From Actinoplanes sichuanensis (GTDB lineage Bacteria > Actinomycetota > Actinomycetes > Mycobacteriales > Micromonosporaceae), in the NCBI RefSeq assembly GCF_033097365.1, contig NZ_AP028461.1, positions 4,650,001 through 4,714,000 of the forward strand: a stretch of 64,000 bases of DNA. Direction: 5' to 3'. Below are positions 27,336-58,309 of this stretch, piece by piece. Both the position numbers and the translations under genes were made by a program. How positions within the stretch are numbered: position 1 is the first letter of the stretch; each line of letters starts with the position of its first letter. The notes under the pieces were generated by a model. That model ran no database searches, was not told the DNA's origin, and saw only the letters and a list, made by a program, of their open reading frames with translations.

Positions 27336-28871
27336 ATGGTGCGGATCATGAGAGTCGGCCGGCAACGCGGTGCCGGTGTGCACCGCGCCCTGGTGCATGC
27401 CGGGTTCGTCGTGCTGGTTCTCGTCGCGGTGGCCGCGTGGGCGTTCGGTGGCCTGGCCGTACGACTCGGTGTGGTGACGGTGATCGGCGCGCTCCCGGCG
27501 GCCGGCATCGCCGTGGGGATGCGGATCAACCGGATCGTCAACCGCACCGCCTGGTATCTGCTGCTCGCCGCGTCGGTGCTGTTCACGATCTTCAACTACC
27601 TGTGGTTCGTGCAGCTCGGCCTCGGTCGCGACGTCGGGGCCGACGGACCGGCGAACCTGGTGCTCCAGGTCCTCGCCTACAGCAGCATCATGCTGTCGGC
27701 GTTGCAGGTGATCCGCAAACACGGCGAAGGCGACCGGGGCGGCATCATCGACGCGACCCTGCTCGGCGTCGGCCTGATCACCCCGGTCTGGGAGTTCGTG
27801 CTGCGCCCGCACCTGCTCGAACTGGACGTGTCAGGTCCCAGCCAGGGCATCTACCTGCTGAAGATGCTGCTGCTGACGGGCACGCTCGGCGCACTGCTGC
27901 GGATCGCGCGGACCGCCGGTACCGCCCGCACCTCGTTGATCTACTTCTTCCTCAGCCTCGGCGCGACCGTCGTCAGCGTGGTGTCGTCGTTGTTGTCGAC
28001 CCGCCCGGGAAGTGACTACTACTCCCCGCTCGTAGACCTGTTCGCGATGATCGGCTATCTGGGGCTGACCGCCGCGGCGCTGCACCCCAGCTCCACCGAG
28101 TTCACCCAGCCGGCCGGATGGCGCCGCAACCGCCTGCGGCCGGTACGGCTGTCGCATCTCGGGTTCGTGCTGGCCATGGTGCCGGTCGTCGGCGGCATTC
28201 CCGAACTGTTCGGCGGCACCACCGACAACCTGCTGCTGACCTTCGGCACACTGCTGGTGATCCCGCTGGTCGTCTCCCGGATCGGGCTGCTGATCGCGGA
28301 ACGGACCGCCGACCAGGAGGCACTTCGCCACCAGGCACACCACGACGAGTTGACCGGTCTGGTCAACCGACGCCGGTTCTTCACCCTGCTGGAGGAGGCG
28401 GTCAGATCCGGCGCCGGAGTCGCGGTTCTCTACTGCGACCTCGACAGATTCAAAGCGATCAACGATGAGTACGGCCACGAAGCCGGCGACGAGGTCCTGC
28501 GTGTGTTCGCCGACCGGCTGCGCGGCACGTTACGGGGCGAGGACGTGGCGGCCCGGATCGGCGGCGACGAGTTCCTGATCCTGGGCACCGGCACGACGGC
28601 CGGTGACGCGGAGGTGCTCAGGCGCCGGATCGAGGACGCCACCTCCGTACCGGCCGTGTGGCGGGGACATCACCTGTCATTCGGAGTGACCGTCGGGGTC
28701 GCGTACGGCAGTGACGCGGACACCAGCGCGGACGGGCTGATGTCGGCCGCCGACGCCGACATGTACCGGCACAAGAACGCCCGGCGAGCCTCCGGAACCC
28801 CAGCCTCATCGGCTCCCCGACCCGCACCTGATCGGCACGTACGAACGGGTGGTTCACTGCCGAACACCTGA
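27336..28871 (+). CDS. Membrane-bound diguanylate cyclase
   Basis: About eight membrane helices fill residues 20-320, followed by a short linker and a GGDEF domain (about 335-490). The active-site motif is intact (RIGGDEFLI), preceded by DLDRFKAINDEYGHEAGDEVL; there is no RxxD inhibitory site at the usual place five residues upstream (the sequence there is RGEDVAARIGGDEF). It should make c-di-GMP from two GTP in response to an unknown signal sensed by the membrane part. The start is ATG 27336, with ATG 27348 as alternative. Confidence 0.9.
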   Translation: MVRIMRVGRQRGAGVHRALVHAGFVVLVLVAVAAWAFGGLAVRLGVVTVIGALPAAGIAVGMRINRIVNRTAWYLLLAASVLFTIFNYLWFVQLGLGRDVGADGPANLVLQVLAYSSIMLSALQVIRKHGEGDRGGIIDATLLGVGLITPVWEFVLRPHLLELDVSGPSQGIYLLKMLLLTGTLGALLRIARTAGTARTSLIYFFLSLGATVVSVVSSLLSTRPGSDYYSPLVDLFAMIGYLGLTAAALHPSSTEFTQPAGWRRNRLRPVRLSHLGFVLAMVPVVGGIPELFGGTTDNLLLTFGTLLVIPLVVSRIGLLIAERTADQEALRHQAHHDELTGLVNRRRFFTLLEEAVRSGAGVAVLYCDLDRFKAINDEYGHEAGDEVLRVFADRLRGTLRGEDVAARIGGDEFLILGTGTTAGDAEVLRRRIEDATSVPAVWRGHHLSFGVTVGVAYGSDADTSADGLMSAADADMYRHKNARRASGTPASSAPRPAPDRHVRTGGSLPNT

Positions 28872-29207: not shown

Positions 29208-29509
29208 CGACCACGGCGACAGCAGGGGATGCCCGGTCGAGAAAGACGACCCCGGTGGTCGTCGCCGAGGTGATCGCGTCCAGGTCCCACTGCCCCTTCG
29301 GGCTCCGTACTGGACTTCAGTGGCAGCACTGATCCCCGCACTCGTTTCCGAGGGCAGGGTTCGGTGGTGGCCCCACGGCGGCACACGACATCCGTTGCCC
29401 AAAGCCACCGTCCAGTGATTTCGCGCCGTCCTCGGCCCGATTCCGGAGGTACCCAGATGCGAAGGTTCATGTCCCCGGCCCGCAACGGCGTGGTGGGGTG
29501 AGGGCGACG

Positions 29510-30718
29510 ATGGACCCGAAAGTCCAGGCGGCGCTCGCCCGGCGCACTGAGTGGTGGCTGATCCACCAGGGACTGCCCAAGTTCATCGCCAAGCAGACGC
29601 TGCGGACCCACACGCTGCCACGCATGTTCCCGCTGCTGAGTTTCTGTGTGCTGACAGTGCCGATCCCGAACGACTGGTTGGCGCTGGCCGTCGCGACGAT
29701 CGGCTCGGCAGCGTTGTGGCTCGTGGTCACCCGGGCCGGTCGCCGACCGCCGCCGGTGTTGCCACGCTGGGTCGCGGCGCTGCTGCTCATCACCTACGTC
29801 GCGGTGCCTCTGGGCGCGGTCGCCCTGGAGGTGGCCAAGGACATGGCGGCCGTCAAAGCCGACACCGAACTGGAGAGCGACGCCGCCGTACAGGGCTTCT
29901 TCGCGATCCTGGCCGTCATCGCGCTCGGACTGGTGTTCGCGGTCGCGAACGTCGCCACCCGATACGGGCTGGTGTCGCTGGTGCTGCATTCGGTCCGGCA
30001 CGTGGCCGGCGATCTGCGGAACAGTTTCGGGCTGCTCGGGCGGGCCTTGCCGATGCTGCTGTTCATCGTGGTGTTCCTGTTCTTCACCGCGGACATCTGG
30101 CAACTGGCCAACCGGATACCGGTCTGGCGGCTGGCCGGGATCTGCGCCATGTTCGTGGCGGTGACGCTGTTCGCGATCGCGGCGCGGCTGCGCGAGGAGA
30201 TCCGCGACATCGAACGGTCGATGGCCCCCGACCGGCTCATCGCGGCCTGCCAGAGAACACCTCTGGAAGCGGTCGCCCCGGCGCTGGCCTCGACTGCCCT
30301 GCTTCCGCCGCTGCGCCCCAGCGAGCAGCGCAACATCCTGCTGATTCTCGGCACCCGGCAACTCATCCGGGCGGCCGTGGTCGGTGTGGCGGTGTTCGGA
30401 TTCTTCGTCGTCTTCGGGCTCGTCGCGGTCAACCAGGCCACCGCGCAGCTCTGGACCGAGTCCACGCAGCCGACGTCTTTCGAGCCCGCAATGGTGAAGG
30501 TGGCGGCCCTGCTGGCCGGGTTCAGCGTTATGTACTTCGCGGTGTCGTCGATGACCCACAGTGAGTTCCGCCAGCGGTATTTCGCCGGAATCCTCGACGA
30601 CGTCAGCCGCGTGCTCGCGGTTCGTGCGGTCTATCACGCACTCCTGCAGACACCGGAACCACCGGAAACCACCCCGCCCCGCGCGGAAACACCGCACCCG
30701 GCCACGGCGATCGCCTGA
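29510..30718 (+). CDS. Integral membrane protein of unknown function
   Basis: The protein of about 402 residues starts at MDPKVQAALARR (ATG 29510; a GTG at 29498 is in frame). It has about seven helices: FPLLSFCVLTVPI, WLALAVATIGSAALWLVV, WVAALLLITYVAVPLGAV, FFAILAVIALGLVFAVANV, MLLFIVVFLFFTADIW, LAGICAMFVAVTLFAIAARL and AAVVGVAVFGFFVVFGLV. No motif or family is recognised. The C-terminal tail is proline-rich (PEPPETTPPRAETPHP). It stands alone on this strand. Confidence 0.75.
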   Translation: MDPKVQAALARRTEWWLIHQGLPKFIAKQTLRTHTLPRMFPLLSFCVLTVPIPNDWLALAVATIGSAALWLVVTRAGRRPPPVLPRWVAALLLITYVAVPLGAVALEVAKDMAAVKADTELESDAAVQGFFAILAVIALGLVFAVANVATRYGLVSLVLHSVRHVAGDLRNSFGLLGRALPMLLFIVVFLFFTADIWQLANRIPVWRLAGICAMFVAVTLFAIAARLREEIRDIERSMAPDRLIAACQRTPLEAVAPALASTALLPPLRPSEQRNILLILGTRQLIRAAVVGVAVFGFFVVFGLVAVNQATAQLWTESTQPTSFEPAMVKVAALLAGFSVMYFAVSSMTHSEFRQRYFAGILDDVSRVLAVRAVYHALLQTPEPPETTPPRAETPHPATAIA

Positions 30719-30920: not shown

Positions 30921-31943
30921 ATGCGTATTCGCGGCCTCCTGACCACCTCCGTCGCAGCCTCGGTCACGGCGATCGCCCTCGGCACCCCCGCGTTCGCGGC
31001 GGTCAGCCTCGACCCGGCCACCGGCAAGGGCTTCATCGGCAAGGGCGACGTCCAGACCGCCCTCGCTCTCAACAACGCCGCCCTGCAGAAGGCCGTCGAC
31101 AGCAAGGGCCTCGCCTTCACCGCCACCCAGCCGACCCTGCAGCAGCAGTCACAGACCGCCACCCAGGCCGCATCACAGGCCGGCTCGCAGACCGGCGTCC
31201 AGACCGGCACCCAAACCGGCACGCAGTCCGCGACCCAGGTCGTGACCCAGACGCTGACCTGTGACTTCACCAACGGAAACGGCACCAAGACGTTCCACCG
31301 CAGCGGCGAACGCGACGCCCAGCGCACCGCCACCCGCACCGGCTCCCGCGACGGCCTGCGCACCGGCAGCCGCGACGCCTCCCGCGACGGCACCCGCTCG
31401 GGCAGCCGCGCCGGCGTCCTGACCGGCAACCTCACCTACGACCTCGACGTGGACGCCCGCAAGAGCAACCAGTACACCGGGTTCATCCTCAAGGGCTGGA
31501 AGGGCACGCCGGTACACGAGGCGGGCGCGACCACCTGGGACGCCGCGCAGTTCGGCGAGTGGACCTTCGGCACCTGGTCGTACGGCGCCTGGACGTTCAG
31601 CGACGCCTACACGTTCGGCGACTACACCTTCGGCGACTACACGTTCGCGCCACTGACCAGCACCCAGTGGGGTGCCTGGGACGCGGCTCCCGGCGAGAAC
31701 CCGGACGACTGCCTGCGCTCCAGCATCGCCGACAAGATCACGCTGCTGAGCAACGTCGTCACCCCCGGCGCGGTCACCGACGGACCGATCAACGACGGCG
31801 CCGTGACCGACGGCGCGATCACCGACGGCGCAGTCACCGACGGCGCGGTCACCGAGGGCGCGACCACGTACGGCACAGTCACCACCGGCGAGATCACCTT
31901 CAACGGCCCGGCCAAGGTGCTCGTCAACGGCAAGACCCTCTGA
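30921..31943 (+). CDS. Secreted protein built of four short-period repeat blocks
   Basis: A signal peptide (residues 1-26, ending GTPAFA) precedes about 90 ordinary residues and then four repeat blocks. Block 1 (about 75-112) repeats a tetrad led by Gln (QTGT, QAGS). Block 2 (about 131-172) repeats a tetrad led by Arg (RTGS, RDGT). Block 3 (about 212-245) repeats aromatic pentads (FGEWT, YGAWT, FGDYT). Block 4 (about 280-325) repeats pentads GAVTD/GAITD. Fixed short periods suggest a beta-solenoid or extended surface fibre. The family is not recognised. The ribosome site ggaagg lies before the ATG, and a strong terminator follows. Confidence 0.8.
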   Translation: MRIRGLLTTSVAASVTAIALGTPAFAAVSLDPATGKGFIGKGDVQTALALNNAALQKAVDSKGLAFTATQPTLQQQSQTATQAASQAGSQTGVQTGTQTGTQSATQVVTQTLTCDFTNGNGTKTFHRSGERDAQRTATRTGSRDGLRTGSRDASRDGTRSGSRAGVLTGNLTYDLDVDARKSNQYTGFILKGWKGTPVHEAGATTWDAAQFGEWTFGTWSYGAWTFSDAYTFGDYTFGDYTFAPLTSTQWGAWDAAPGENPDDCLRSSIADKITLLSNVVTPGAVTDGPINDGAVTDGAITDGAVTDGAVTEGATTYGTVTTGEITFNGPAKVLVNGKTL

Positions 31944-32795: not shown

Positions 32796-34770
32796 CTACC
32801 CGGCATGTCGAGCGATCGCGAACGGCGTGTCGGTGCGGCTCATCGTCGCCGTGCGCAGGTGACGGGTGAGCGCGTCGGCGGGCATCGGCCGAGCCAGGTG
32901 GTATCCCTGAGCGAGGTCGCAGCCGATCTCGTGCAGCGCGGTGAGGGTCGCCGCATCCTCGATGCCTTCGGCGACGACGGTGAGCCCCAGGGTGTGACCG
33001 AGTTCGACGGTGGAGGCGACCAGCGCTCGACTGCTGTGGTCGGCGGCCATGTCCTTGACGAACGAGCGGTCGATCTTCAGTTCGTCCAGTGGCAGTAGCC
33101 GTAGGTAGGTCATGGAGGAATAGCCGGTGCCGTAGTCGTCGATGGACGTCTTCACCCCGAGGTCGCGGATGCGTTTCAAGGTGGCGATGGCGGTGTCCGG
33201 ATCGTTCATGACGCTGTGTTCGGTGACCTCGATGCACAGTTGGTCGCCCGGCACACCGGCCTGGTCCAGCAGGGTCGCGAGCCGGTCGGGGAAGGTGGTG
33301 TCCAGCAGTGATCGGGTGGAGAGGTTGACCGCCACCCGGACCGGGTGGCCCTCGTCGAGCCAGGCCCGGGCCTGCGTCAGGGCCTGCATCAGCACCTGAT
33401 GGGTGAATCGGTGGATCAGGGTGGTGGCTTCCAGGACCGGGATGAACTCGCCCGGGGAGACGGGTCCCTTGGTGGGATGCGTCCAGCGGGCGAGCGCCTC
33501 CACCCCGGCCAGTTCACCGGTCTCGACGGCGATCTTGGGCTGGTAGTGCAGGCTGATCTCGTCGCCGTTGTCCAGGGCGCGGCGCAGGTCGCCGAGCAGG
33601 GTGAGCCGGGCGGTGGTGTCGTCGGCGGCGCGGCCGGGAGCGTACCGCTGGAATCCGCTGCGCTGCTGTTTGGCGTGGTTCATGGCGGTGTCGGCGTGCC
33701 GCAGCACCGTGGGGACGTCGTCGCCGGGGCCGGCGGTGGCGGCGCCGATGCTGACCTCCAGGTCCACGGTCAGATCGTCGATGGTGAACGGGTCGTCGAA
33801 GGCGCCGGTCAGTCGGGCGGCGATGTCCTCCCCGACGGTCGGGTCGGTGTCGCGCAGAAGCACCGCGAACTCGTCACCACCGAGCCGCGCCACGACGTCG
33901 TGCTCCCGGATCGCAGCCTGCAGGCGCCGGCTGACATGGGTGAGCAGCAGATCACCGGCGTGGTGGCCGAGCTGTTCGTTGACGTCCCGGAATCCGTCGA
34001 GGTTGACCACCAGCACGGTGACCCGGCCCCGCGCGGACCGCCTCCGGCGGCGCCGGTGACCGGCGATCTCGGTGAGCGCCGCGTGAACCCGACCGGTGAA
34101 GCCGTTGCGGTTGGGCAGGCCGGTCAGCGCGTCGGTGGCGGCGGTCGCCTCGATCTGCCGTCGGTGCGACCGTGTCGCATGCCCGAACAGCACGAGCACG
34201 GTCACGCTCAGCAGGAAGGCGAGGCCGCTGCCCCACAACAGCCGCTGTGAGTCCCGCAGGCCGGTCGCCTGCTTCGCGGCGTGGTCGGCGAGGTGATGCT
34301 CCCGCTCGGCCAGCACCGCGGTCATGATCGAGGTGGTGGCGGGTTCGATCGTCTTCTCGAGGGTGGCCTCGGCGGTCTCCCCGTCGCCGAGGTCGAGCGA
34401 CCGCAGGTAACCGGCGATGTCCGGTTTCATGCCGCTGTGCGCCTGCACGAGTGCAGCGGCGAGCCGCTGGTGCTCGCCGTCGACGGACGCCATGTGTTCC
34501 ATGGCGCGCTGGGTCTGCTCGTGGACGTCGGGAAGCTGCCGGCGCTCCTCACCGTCGGGCTCCCGCAGCGATGCCTGCAGCAGCGCCAGCTCCCAGCTCA
34601 TCAGGTAGGCGGTGTCCTGGTAGGCGTCGGTATCGGCGCTGTCGTCGGCGAGATCCTGCACGATGCCCGTCTGCCGCCAGCTACCGAACACCGCGTAACC
34701 GGACAGACCCGCCATCACGACCGCGAGCAGACCACCCAGCCACCACGAAGCGCCCCGCGCCGAACCCATC
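32796..34770 (-). CDS. Membrane GGDEF-EAL protein
   Basis: The protein of 657 residues starts at MGSARGAS (34770). Two helices (about 8-28 and 170-190) frame an exported helical sensor domain. Then come GGDEF (RLGGDEFAVLL) and EAL (VEALARWTHPTKG, with ELKIDRSFV and DDYGTGYSSMTYL) domains, both with their catalytic motifs. It could both make and break c-di-GMP; which activity dominates cannot be read from the sequence. The sensor resembles a four-helix ligand-binding domain. Confidence 0.92.
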
Positions 34771-34967
34771 GTCACCCTCCGCCGCCCACACCGTCCGTAT
34801 TTTGATCGGCACCGATCGGGGGCGACCTGATGACAGTTCACCAGGTTGTGATCAGGGACATCCTCGGACCGCCGACCGTCGGCACCCACTGCTCCCGGTG
34901 GAAGCCGATGTCAGGCGACATCGATGCCGGCCACCGGCAGTGGATCCGGCAGGGAATGGACGACCGA

Positions 34968-57972: not shown

Positions 57973-58281
57973 ATGGCAGACCTCGCGACCGTCCGCGAAT
58001 GGAACGACGACGAGGGCTGGGGAGTCATCGACTCTCCGTCGACCCCCGGTGGCTGCTGGGCCCACTTCAGTCACGCGGCGGTGGCCGGGGCCGTCACCTT
58101 CACGACGGGTGCCCCCGTTCTCCTGGAGTGGGAATCGCCGGGCCAGGACGGGTATCCGTACCGCGCCGTGCGTTTCTGGCCTTCGGGGTCCGAACCGGTC
58201 GACAGGGCAAACCGACCGGGTAACGGCGGCGCCTACCGCAGTGTCCTCACGATCTCGTTCGACCGAGACCACGATCAGTAG
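57973..58281 (+). CDS. Cold-shock-domain-like protein
   Basis: The 102-residue product begins VREWNDDEGWGVIDSPSTPGGCWAHFSHAAV, the RNP1-like pattern of cold-shock proteins (W-x-x-x-x-G-[FW]-G-x-I), and then LLEWESPGQDGYPYRAVRFWP, like the closing strands of the OB fold. It is longer than Csp proteins by a C-terminal tail (about 30 residues). It may bind single-stranded nucleic acid. Its stop codon lies in the first copy of a 25-bp tandem duplication. Confidence 0.75.
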   Translation: MADLATVREWNDDEGWGVIDSPSTPGGCWAHFSHAAVAGAVTFTTGAPVLLEWESPGQDGYPYRAVRFWPSGSEPVDRANRPGNGGAYRSVLTISFDRDHDQ

Positions 58282-58309
58282 AAGCGACCGAGACCACGAT
58301 CAGTAGAAG
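58260..58309. repeat. 25-bp perfect tandem duplication
   Basis: Units at 58260-58284 and 58285-58309 are identical. The first contains the stop codon (58279-58281) of the cold-shock-like gene, and the second holds the stop (58300-58302) of the converging secreted-protein gene. Confidence 0.9.

Follow-up and report, generated by a model that had tools for sequence, protein, structure and literature searches.

Beta-solenoids and pentapeptide-repeat proteins are all-beta and have short fixed periods, and in a solenoid the successive repeats stack as coils; viral fiber shafts of the triple beta-spiral type carry their repeats along a beta shaft and are trimeric, with one repeat type per chain. 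Periscope Proteins (PMC8201768) and SasG-type rods (PMC4458895) are secreted bacterial proteins in which the number of repeats sets the length of an elongated shaft; their repeats are whole folded domains in tandem, variable in number and wall-attached in the cases described. The coiled-coil hairpin of chemoreceptors (MCP) falls into length classes of 12 to 32 paired heptads (PMC6628036). Here, we describe a gene at positions 30921 to 31943 of a 64,000-nucleotide stretch of Actinoplanes sichuanensis (contig NZ_AP028461.1, 4,650,001 to 4,714,000), the whole of which is referred to below as the window. We consider it fairly probable that its product is an exported single-chain rod in which four repeat tracks lie side by side, that this rod arose as a stretched small beta-domain, and that it serves as a spacer.

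The open reading frame was confirmed, with an ATG start, a TGA stop, and 340 codons for amino acids; the GC content at third codon positions (GC3) is 0.94 in a window of 0.695 GC, which is consistent with a real gene in GC-rich DNA. The initial annotation had described a signal peptide followed by four blocks of short-period repeats, and both descriptions hold. A Sec-type signal peptide is suggested by our reading of a hydrophobic stretch and of A24-F25-A26, with A24 and A26 at least 90% conserved in an alignment of 102 rows. The repeat units are the tetrads Q-x-G-[ST] and R-x-G-[ST] and the pentads FGxWT/FGDYT and GAVTD. Lag-4 identity was 0.45 in the Gln-led (Q) block and 0.44 in the Arg-led (R) block, against shuffled means of 0.16 and 0.11; lag-5 identity was 0.30 in the FG block and 0.56 in the GAV block, against shuffled means of 0.09 and 0.13. 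In none of the four blocks was the observed value reached by any of 5000 composition-preserving shuffles, and Tandem Repeats Finder picked out the same four stretches in the DNA (31149-31239, 31311-31410, 31607-31647, and 31758-31898). The signal peptide is followed by a conserved start of 40 residues, GKGFIGKGDVQ..NN..LQKAV, and PGENPDDC lies in the segment between the FG and GAV pentads. No promoter or terminator patterns were found. The features of the gene, as read from the sequence, the alignment, and an AlphaFold2 model, are as follows.

30921..31943, + strand: whole gene of the proposed four-track rod protein, 340 amino acids, stop included (open reading frame, repeats, relatives)
30921..30998, + strand: putative signal peptide, residues 1-26, AFA/A (sequence reading; near-invariance of A24 and A26; predicted local distance difference test score [pLDDT] below 50 at residues 1-25)
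31002..31118, + strand: N-terminal cap, residues 28-66, GKGFIGKGDVQ..NN..LQ, predicted as strand-strand-helix-helix (nearly invariant residues, model, common to the shaftless relatives)
31119..31259, + strand: track 1, Gln-led tetrads, residues 67-113, modeled as a single strand (66-116) (periodicity, model, block lengths)
31260..31313, + strand: putative tip hairpin, residues 114-131, with conserved Cys114 and an NGNGT turn (alignment, model)
31314..31457, + strand: track 2, Arg-led tetrads, residues 132-179, predicted to return; strand 122-181 with a low-confidence break near 138-145 (periodicity, model, block lengths)
31473..31538, + strand: predicted outgoing base strand, residues 185-206, TGFxLxG, which is TGFILKG in the window protein (alignment, model)
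31539..31670, + strand: track 3, aromatic pentads FGxWT/FGDYT, residues 207-250, with T-F bridges and three-residue breaks in the model (periodicity, model, lengths)
31671..31736, + strand: putative tip segment, residues 251-272, GAWDAAPGENPDDCLRS.., with conserved Cys264 (alignment, model)
31737..31901, + strand: track 4, GAVTD pentads, residues 273-327, modeled as a single strand of 55 residues (periodicity, model, lengths)
31902..31940, + strand: C-terminal cap, residues 328-340, GPAKVLVNGKTL (alignment, model)

The lengths of the four blocks are coupled. Spacings between conserved residues, which depend little on where an aligner places its gaps, were measured in 142 of 173 sequences, the window protein included (the 31 others were fragments or lacked an anchor residue): F66 to C114 for the Q block, R131 to R180 for the R block, and C264 to G329 for the GAV segment. 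The Q block is 47 residues long in 72 sequences, 31 in 62, 27 in 7, and 43 in 1. The R block is 48 residues long in 72/72 members of the Q47 class and 32 in 62/62 members of the Q31 class, and the class differences of 16 and 20 residues in Q and R equal 4 and 5 tetrads. For Q classes 47, 31, and 27, the median FG segment is 66, 42, and 36 residues (n = 72, 62, and 7) and the median GAV segment is 64, 43, and 37.5 residues (n = 65, 54, and 4); counted by inspection, there are 7 FG pentads in the window protein, 3 in the relative P0093, and 2 in P0116. Both pentad blocks lose about one pentad per tetrad lost, and the coupling as a whole points to one layer of about 4 + 4 + 5 + 5 residues. A match of the FG pentads to the 10.4-Å cellobiose repeat was considered first but dropped, since the pentad counts fit one pentad per tetrad.

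All 72 sequences of the long class hold exactly 47/48, the aligned ones down to 38% identity to the window protein. An alignment-free text-pattern count, possible for 136 of the 173 sequences, assigned 120 to the three Q classes given above, and in 115 of these the next conserved anchor follows at an offset of 21 to 25; the remaining 16 gave other Q values, some because the pattern takes an earlier Phe. Eight of the 10 full-length members dropped for an anchor were remeasured with other anchors, and 7 of them fit, with P0073 off by 1 and 5 residues. Lengths of 35 and 39 are absent from the Q blocks of the 142 sequences, between the common values of 31 and 47, and 43 is found once; either selection acts on length as such, or intermediates with unmatched tracks misfold. 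As a speculation, the 16-residue step might be a half-turn of the shaft twist.

An elongated all-beta object had been proposed at the outset, and the AlphaFold2 model, built with 102 aligned sequences, agrees with this (mean pLDDT 88). The predicted strands span residues 66-116 (51 residues), 122-138, 146-181, 185-206, and 273-327 (55 residues), whereas each FG pentad consists of two bridged residues (T-F) and a three-residue break. By inspection, strand 185-206 has a roughly constant length across the alignment. The order of the strands suggests an up-down-up-down path that brings C114 and C264 to the tip and leaves the two termini at the base. Conservation in the tetrads falls on one parity (Q 87%, R 88%, and R-block Gly 83%), and the other parity is variable; the conserved Gln/Gly and Arg/Gly face would be the packed one. 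The charged, aromatic, and acidic faces suggested earlier are thus borne out only in part: the conserved Gln/Gly and Arg/Gly residues share one strand face, and the other, presumably outer, face is variable and rich in Ser/Thr/Asp/Glu. Co-variation lends weak support to antiparallel Q-R pairing within classes, the best antiparallel and parallel diagonals being 4.35 versus 2.67 in the long class and 3.33 versus 2.14 in the short class (uncalibrated scores). The multi-zone beta-solenoid that the initial annotation had offered finds no support in these data: because the block lengths are coupled and each block spans the whole shaft in the model, the blocks would lie side by side along one shaft and not as successive zones of a fiber.

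The rod shape, supported but unproven, would come about as follows. An ancestral small secreted beta-domain, of about 165 to 195 amino acids with signal peptide to judge from the relatives examined, would have received repeat units in all four of its long strands, giving an exported, apparently unanchored, single-chain and presumably monomeric rod of about 17 nm (a 51-residue strand × 3.3 Å per residue). Track 1 would run from base to tip, track 2 back, track 3 out again, and track 4 back. In the register proposed, one shaft layer would take one tetrad each from tracks 1 and 2 and one pentad each from tracks 3 and 4, that is, 18 residues with a rise of about 13 Å; a bulge in each unit may match the FG pentads to the tetrads, and the corresponding fit of the GAVTD pentads is not seen. 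The N- and C-terminal caps would meet at the base and Cys114 and Cys264 at the tip, where a disulfide is possible. By inspection, the protein ends in ..GPAKVLVNGKTL with neither a sorting motif nor a C-terminal hydrophobic stretch. By arithmetic, the shaftless form would be about 5 nm long and the three classes with a shaft about 10, 11.5, and 17 nm. Since the length is exact despite strong sequence drift, the caps are conserved, and the outer face is variable, the protein is probably an extracellular spacer, which could bind partners through its caps and act as a rigid strut of defined length in the extracellular matrix or cell envelope.

The caps connect the rod to secreted proteins that have no shaft. 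A shaftless relative was found in 42 of 67 genus genomes (E 1e-10), including the window genome, where it has 179 amino acids (G000:C1:7561020-7561541; L003 1486-2022); the relatives of this paralogue are mostly Actinoplanes among those named. In two genus genomes (G302 and G374), shaftless genes lie as adjacent pairs. Comparison of the rod and shaftless profiles with hhalign gave a probability of 98.8 and an E value of 1e-16 over 120 columns, covering the N-terminal two thirds and the signal peptide. The one shaftless model (86 sequences, pLDDT 89) has main strands of 16, 6+13, 16, and 20 residues and shows the same order of elements as the rod model. Further shaftless relatives, with caps closer still to those of the rod, occur in Bacillus sp. 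FJAT-29814, on a Deinococcus plasmid, and in another actinobacterium. In a joint alignment of ten proteins that includes the Bacillus and Deinococcus sequences, the large gaps of the shaftless proteins coincide with the four repeat blocks. The F-to-C spacing is 13 in 86/86 Actinoplanes-type shaftless sequences, 11 in the other actinobacterium, and 11 by eye in Deinococcus, and the Bacillus relative is without the first Cys; the Q lengths of 27, 31, and 47 equal 11 plus 4, 5, and 9 tetrads. The rod thus appears to belong with these shaftless proteins, with which it shares caps and, in the models, the order of secondary structure. Given the shared caps, the gaps at the blocks, and the 11-plus-tetrads spacing, a small beta-domain seems to have been stretched along its strands.

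Several observations weigh against the rod. In the Q27 class (n = 7), the R block is uneven (28 to 32), and one odd member, P0019, departs from the lockstep with Q 43 and R 48, so that 8/142 members are ambiguous or unmatched. Relative to P0107, P0108 has 25 residues fewer in its FG block but equal Q and R lengths; in these otherwise near-identical proteins, the difference is an in-frame loss of aromatic block between two GDWV copies, which may be a natural or an assembly deletion. For four layers, the FG segment shortens by 24 residues and not 20; by inspection, we ascribe the extra 4 to a hexad together with a lengthened linker. In many relatives, the pentad blocks show less regularity than the tetrads, and the longest regular Gly chain at period 5 in the GAV block is at most 4 in 36/72 long members. 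On a tree made from the caps only, the length class changes about 13 times, which speaks for the rod, but the branches are weakly supported: there are 10 independent contrasts on the best tree and only 1 on supported branches, where the tail length follows the same direction in no more than 0.8 of pairings. Profile matching to the shaftless proteins stops short of the C-terminal third. In the model, the predicted template modeling score is only 0.66, pLDDT is below 50 at residues 138-143 inside track 2, and the topology was read from DSSP order and segment lengths. When both classes are pooled, the uncalibrated Q-R co-variation is higher for the parallel than for the antiparallel diagonal (5.12 versus 4.25). 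Arg counts and acidic residues of the pentads are uncorrelated within classes (rho of 0.10 and −0.13); charge balance between the Arg and acidic tracks was therefore rejected, and the counts give no sign of charge pairing in the core. Finally, no neighboring open reading frame is shared by position among the window and seven other loci.

The fold prediction itself has to be weighed against a documented bias, since AlphaFold2 can over-predict such folds for repeats, and stacked Arg and Gln inside the shaft are the kind of feature that PMC11795689 warns of. It is accordingly conceivable, if unlikely, that the repeats are mainly disordered or loose, that AlphaFold2 invents the strands, and that the equal lengths reflect a few inherited, hard-to-change types; the mostly polar composition, the weak support of the tree, and the looseness of the pentads in many members fit this explanation. 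However, the rod repeats are diverged and not perfect, and for four families with diverged repeats the predictors agree, according to the same paper. The coupling of lengths is evidence separate from AlphaFold2, and a disordered linker would hardly keep two separate blocks to the residue, as seen with 47/48 in 72 sequences; moreover, the model of a shaftless protein that has no such repeats shows its elements in the same order.

The composition would also suit an assembly-competent or amyloid-like strand protein, in which Gln/Thr/Gly and aromatic repeats of neighboring molecules stack on each other, as in matrix fibers of the curli or chaplin type. Gln ladders, Gly and aromatic repeats, export, and the lack of a visible anchor are in keeping with it, as are the relatives in Streptomyces and Micromonospora; Streptomyces has amyloid coat proteins. 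We nevertheless regard this as distinctly unlikely, because the coupled track lengths and the caps with two conserved Cys residues are best explained within one molecule and because Pfam scans of the window protein and 102 members gave no curlin or other fiber family above chance. Least probable is a binding surface, on which the exposed Trp/Tyr of the FGDW/FGDY pentads or a Ser/Thr ladder of the Q strand would bind polysaccharide or ice: pentad position 4 is W or Y in 69% of 288 units (members with regular chains), the outer Q-strand positions are Thr/Ser in 81% and Ser/Ala/Thr in 66%, and flat, regular faces are typical of such binders, but the aromatic side chains may be buried, one position of the outer R-strand face is Asp/Glu in 35% and spoils a flat Thr array, P0108 has no FG block, and the shaftless relatives have neither array.

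Compared with described systems, the proposed single-chain rod shares with Periscope and SasG-type stalks, the nearest function that we saw in print, a secreted protein with an elongated shaft whose length is fixed by the repeat count. Unlike those stalks, it has no contiguous domain unit, each layer being drawn from four distant blocks; its repeats are of 4 to 5 residues only, and no domain family was found in Pfam and NCBIfam scans. It also shows no wall anchor and has two common lengths, with a third in 7/142. The nearest principle that we saw in print is the MCP coiled coil, where length classes likewise result from paired units in a long hairpin; that hairpin is helical with one period and two arms, whereas the rod would be beta with periods 4 and 5 and four tracks, so that the two are parallel in principle and not related. 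Successive repeats in the rod model lie along one strand, over 51 and 55 continuous residues, and do not stack as in a solenoid; the long strands and the length coupling of distant blocks argue against stacked coils, largely on the basis of prediction. The Pfam pentapeptide families gave no match in the window protein, and 1 of 102 members weakly matched Pentapeptide_2 (E 0.066). In contrast to a triple beta-spiral, a single chain would supply all tracks.

Tentatively, and with less confidence than we place in the rod itself, we suggest a new kind of shaft, with four interleaved tracks (one pair of period 4, the other of period 5), layers formed from four distant parts of the sequence, and a quantized length that changes mainly by matched gains and losses, a nanometer ruler. 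If the model holds, it would be an unusually long soluble single-chain beta-rod with strands of more than 50 residues, with a simple code in which each of the four tracks gives one tetrad or pentad to every layer, and a small beta-domain would have been lengthened along its strands by a route unlike that of tandem-domain stalks. The natural series, shaftless and then +4, +5, and +9 tetrads on a rod-type cap, would then allow the coordinated evolution of distant repeats to be studied. Use as a rigid molecular ruler would be possible.

A protein search returned 138 relatives, and the following statements cover the best 120. They are 32 to 77% identical and come from Streptomyces, Kitasatospora, Micromonospora, Microbacterium, Mumia, and others; none of the 120 has a Pfam domain, and all are named hypothetical or uncharacterized except for one FliH label, which, like the FliH match in NCBIfam, looks like a low-complexity match far below the cut-off. 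The order of the blocks is kept in the aligned relatives (35 to 76% identical to the window protein), as the initial annotation had asked of homologues. A second search with short members gave 854 matches, adding Cellulomonas among the 120 listed, so that many secreted proteins without a family are joined in one testable family. The view that no known family accounts for the protein was upheld: the window protein had only chance-level matches in Pfam, NCBIfam, and PHROG, as had 102 members in Pfam, and a profile search of PDB sequences had a best E value of 0.27. Fold searches found nothing convincing; one viral model, A0A088C4L1 (191 amino acids), gave E 1.3e-5 with a template modeling score of 0.08 to 0.14. 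No publication on this repeat family, GKGDVQ, or such long strands was found in a literature search that mostly excluded subscription papers and preprints.

One full rod copy is present in the window genome, the only one of 67 genus genomes to carry the rod (E 1e-15); across 396 genomes sampled broadly over the phylum, the rod was again confined to the window genome, with one shaftless match besides. This patchy distribution suggests that the gene was gained horizontally or lost repeatedly. A phage, plasmid, or viral origin was rejected, as phage and plasmid records held no match for the window protein; viral contigs gave no match to patterns of close relatives, in a scan sensitive to close relatives only.

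With no neighbor common by position, nothing in the surroundings points to function. Farther from the gene, three pairs of loci share a match: L008 with L011 (63% over 442 amino acids, at distances of about 6 and 4 kb and with opposite orientation), L008 with L012 (29% over 243 amino acids), and L008 with the window (41% over 79 amino acids). Sixteen chosen flanking open reading frames at seven loci belong to assorted families or to none, and two of these loci hold shaftless genes. Downstream of the shaftless gene in Bacillus sp. FJAT-29814 lies one for a 1014-amino-acid protein (L011 8926-11970) that, in our reading, looks exported and consists of repeated immunoglobulin-like units. In the window, cyclic di-GMP (c-di-GMP) genes flank the rod gene, encoding GGDEF and GGDEF-EAL proteins (27336-28871, + strand, and 32796-34889, − strand), and an EAL gene (L033 7097-8971) adjoins that of the shaftless Deinococcus protein; an association of c-di-GMP genes with the rod was considered and dropped, none being among the chosen flanking frames at the Streptomyces and Microbacterium loci. 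The window has no Rfam match, and a regulatory RNA was thus rejected. Upstream of the rod gene, positions 29498-30718 (+ strand) encode a 406-amino-acid protein that is membrane-like by eye and weakly resembles an actinobacterial holin-like family, below the cut-off (E 0.004). At 58260-58309, a 25-base unit occurs as two perfect tandem copies.
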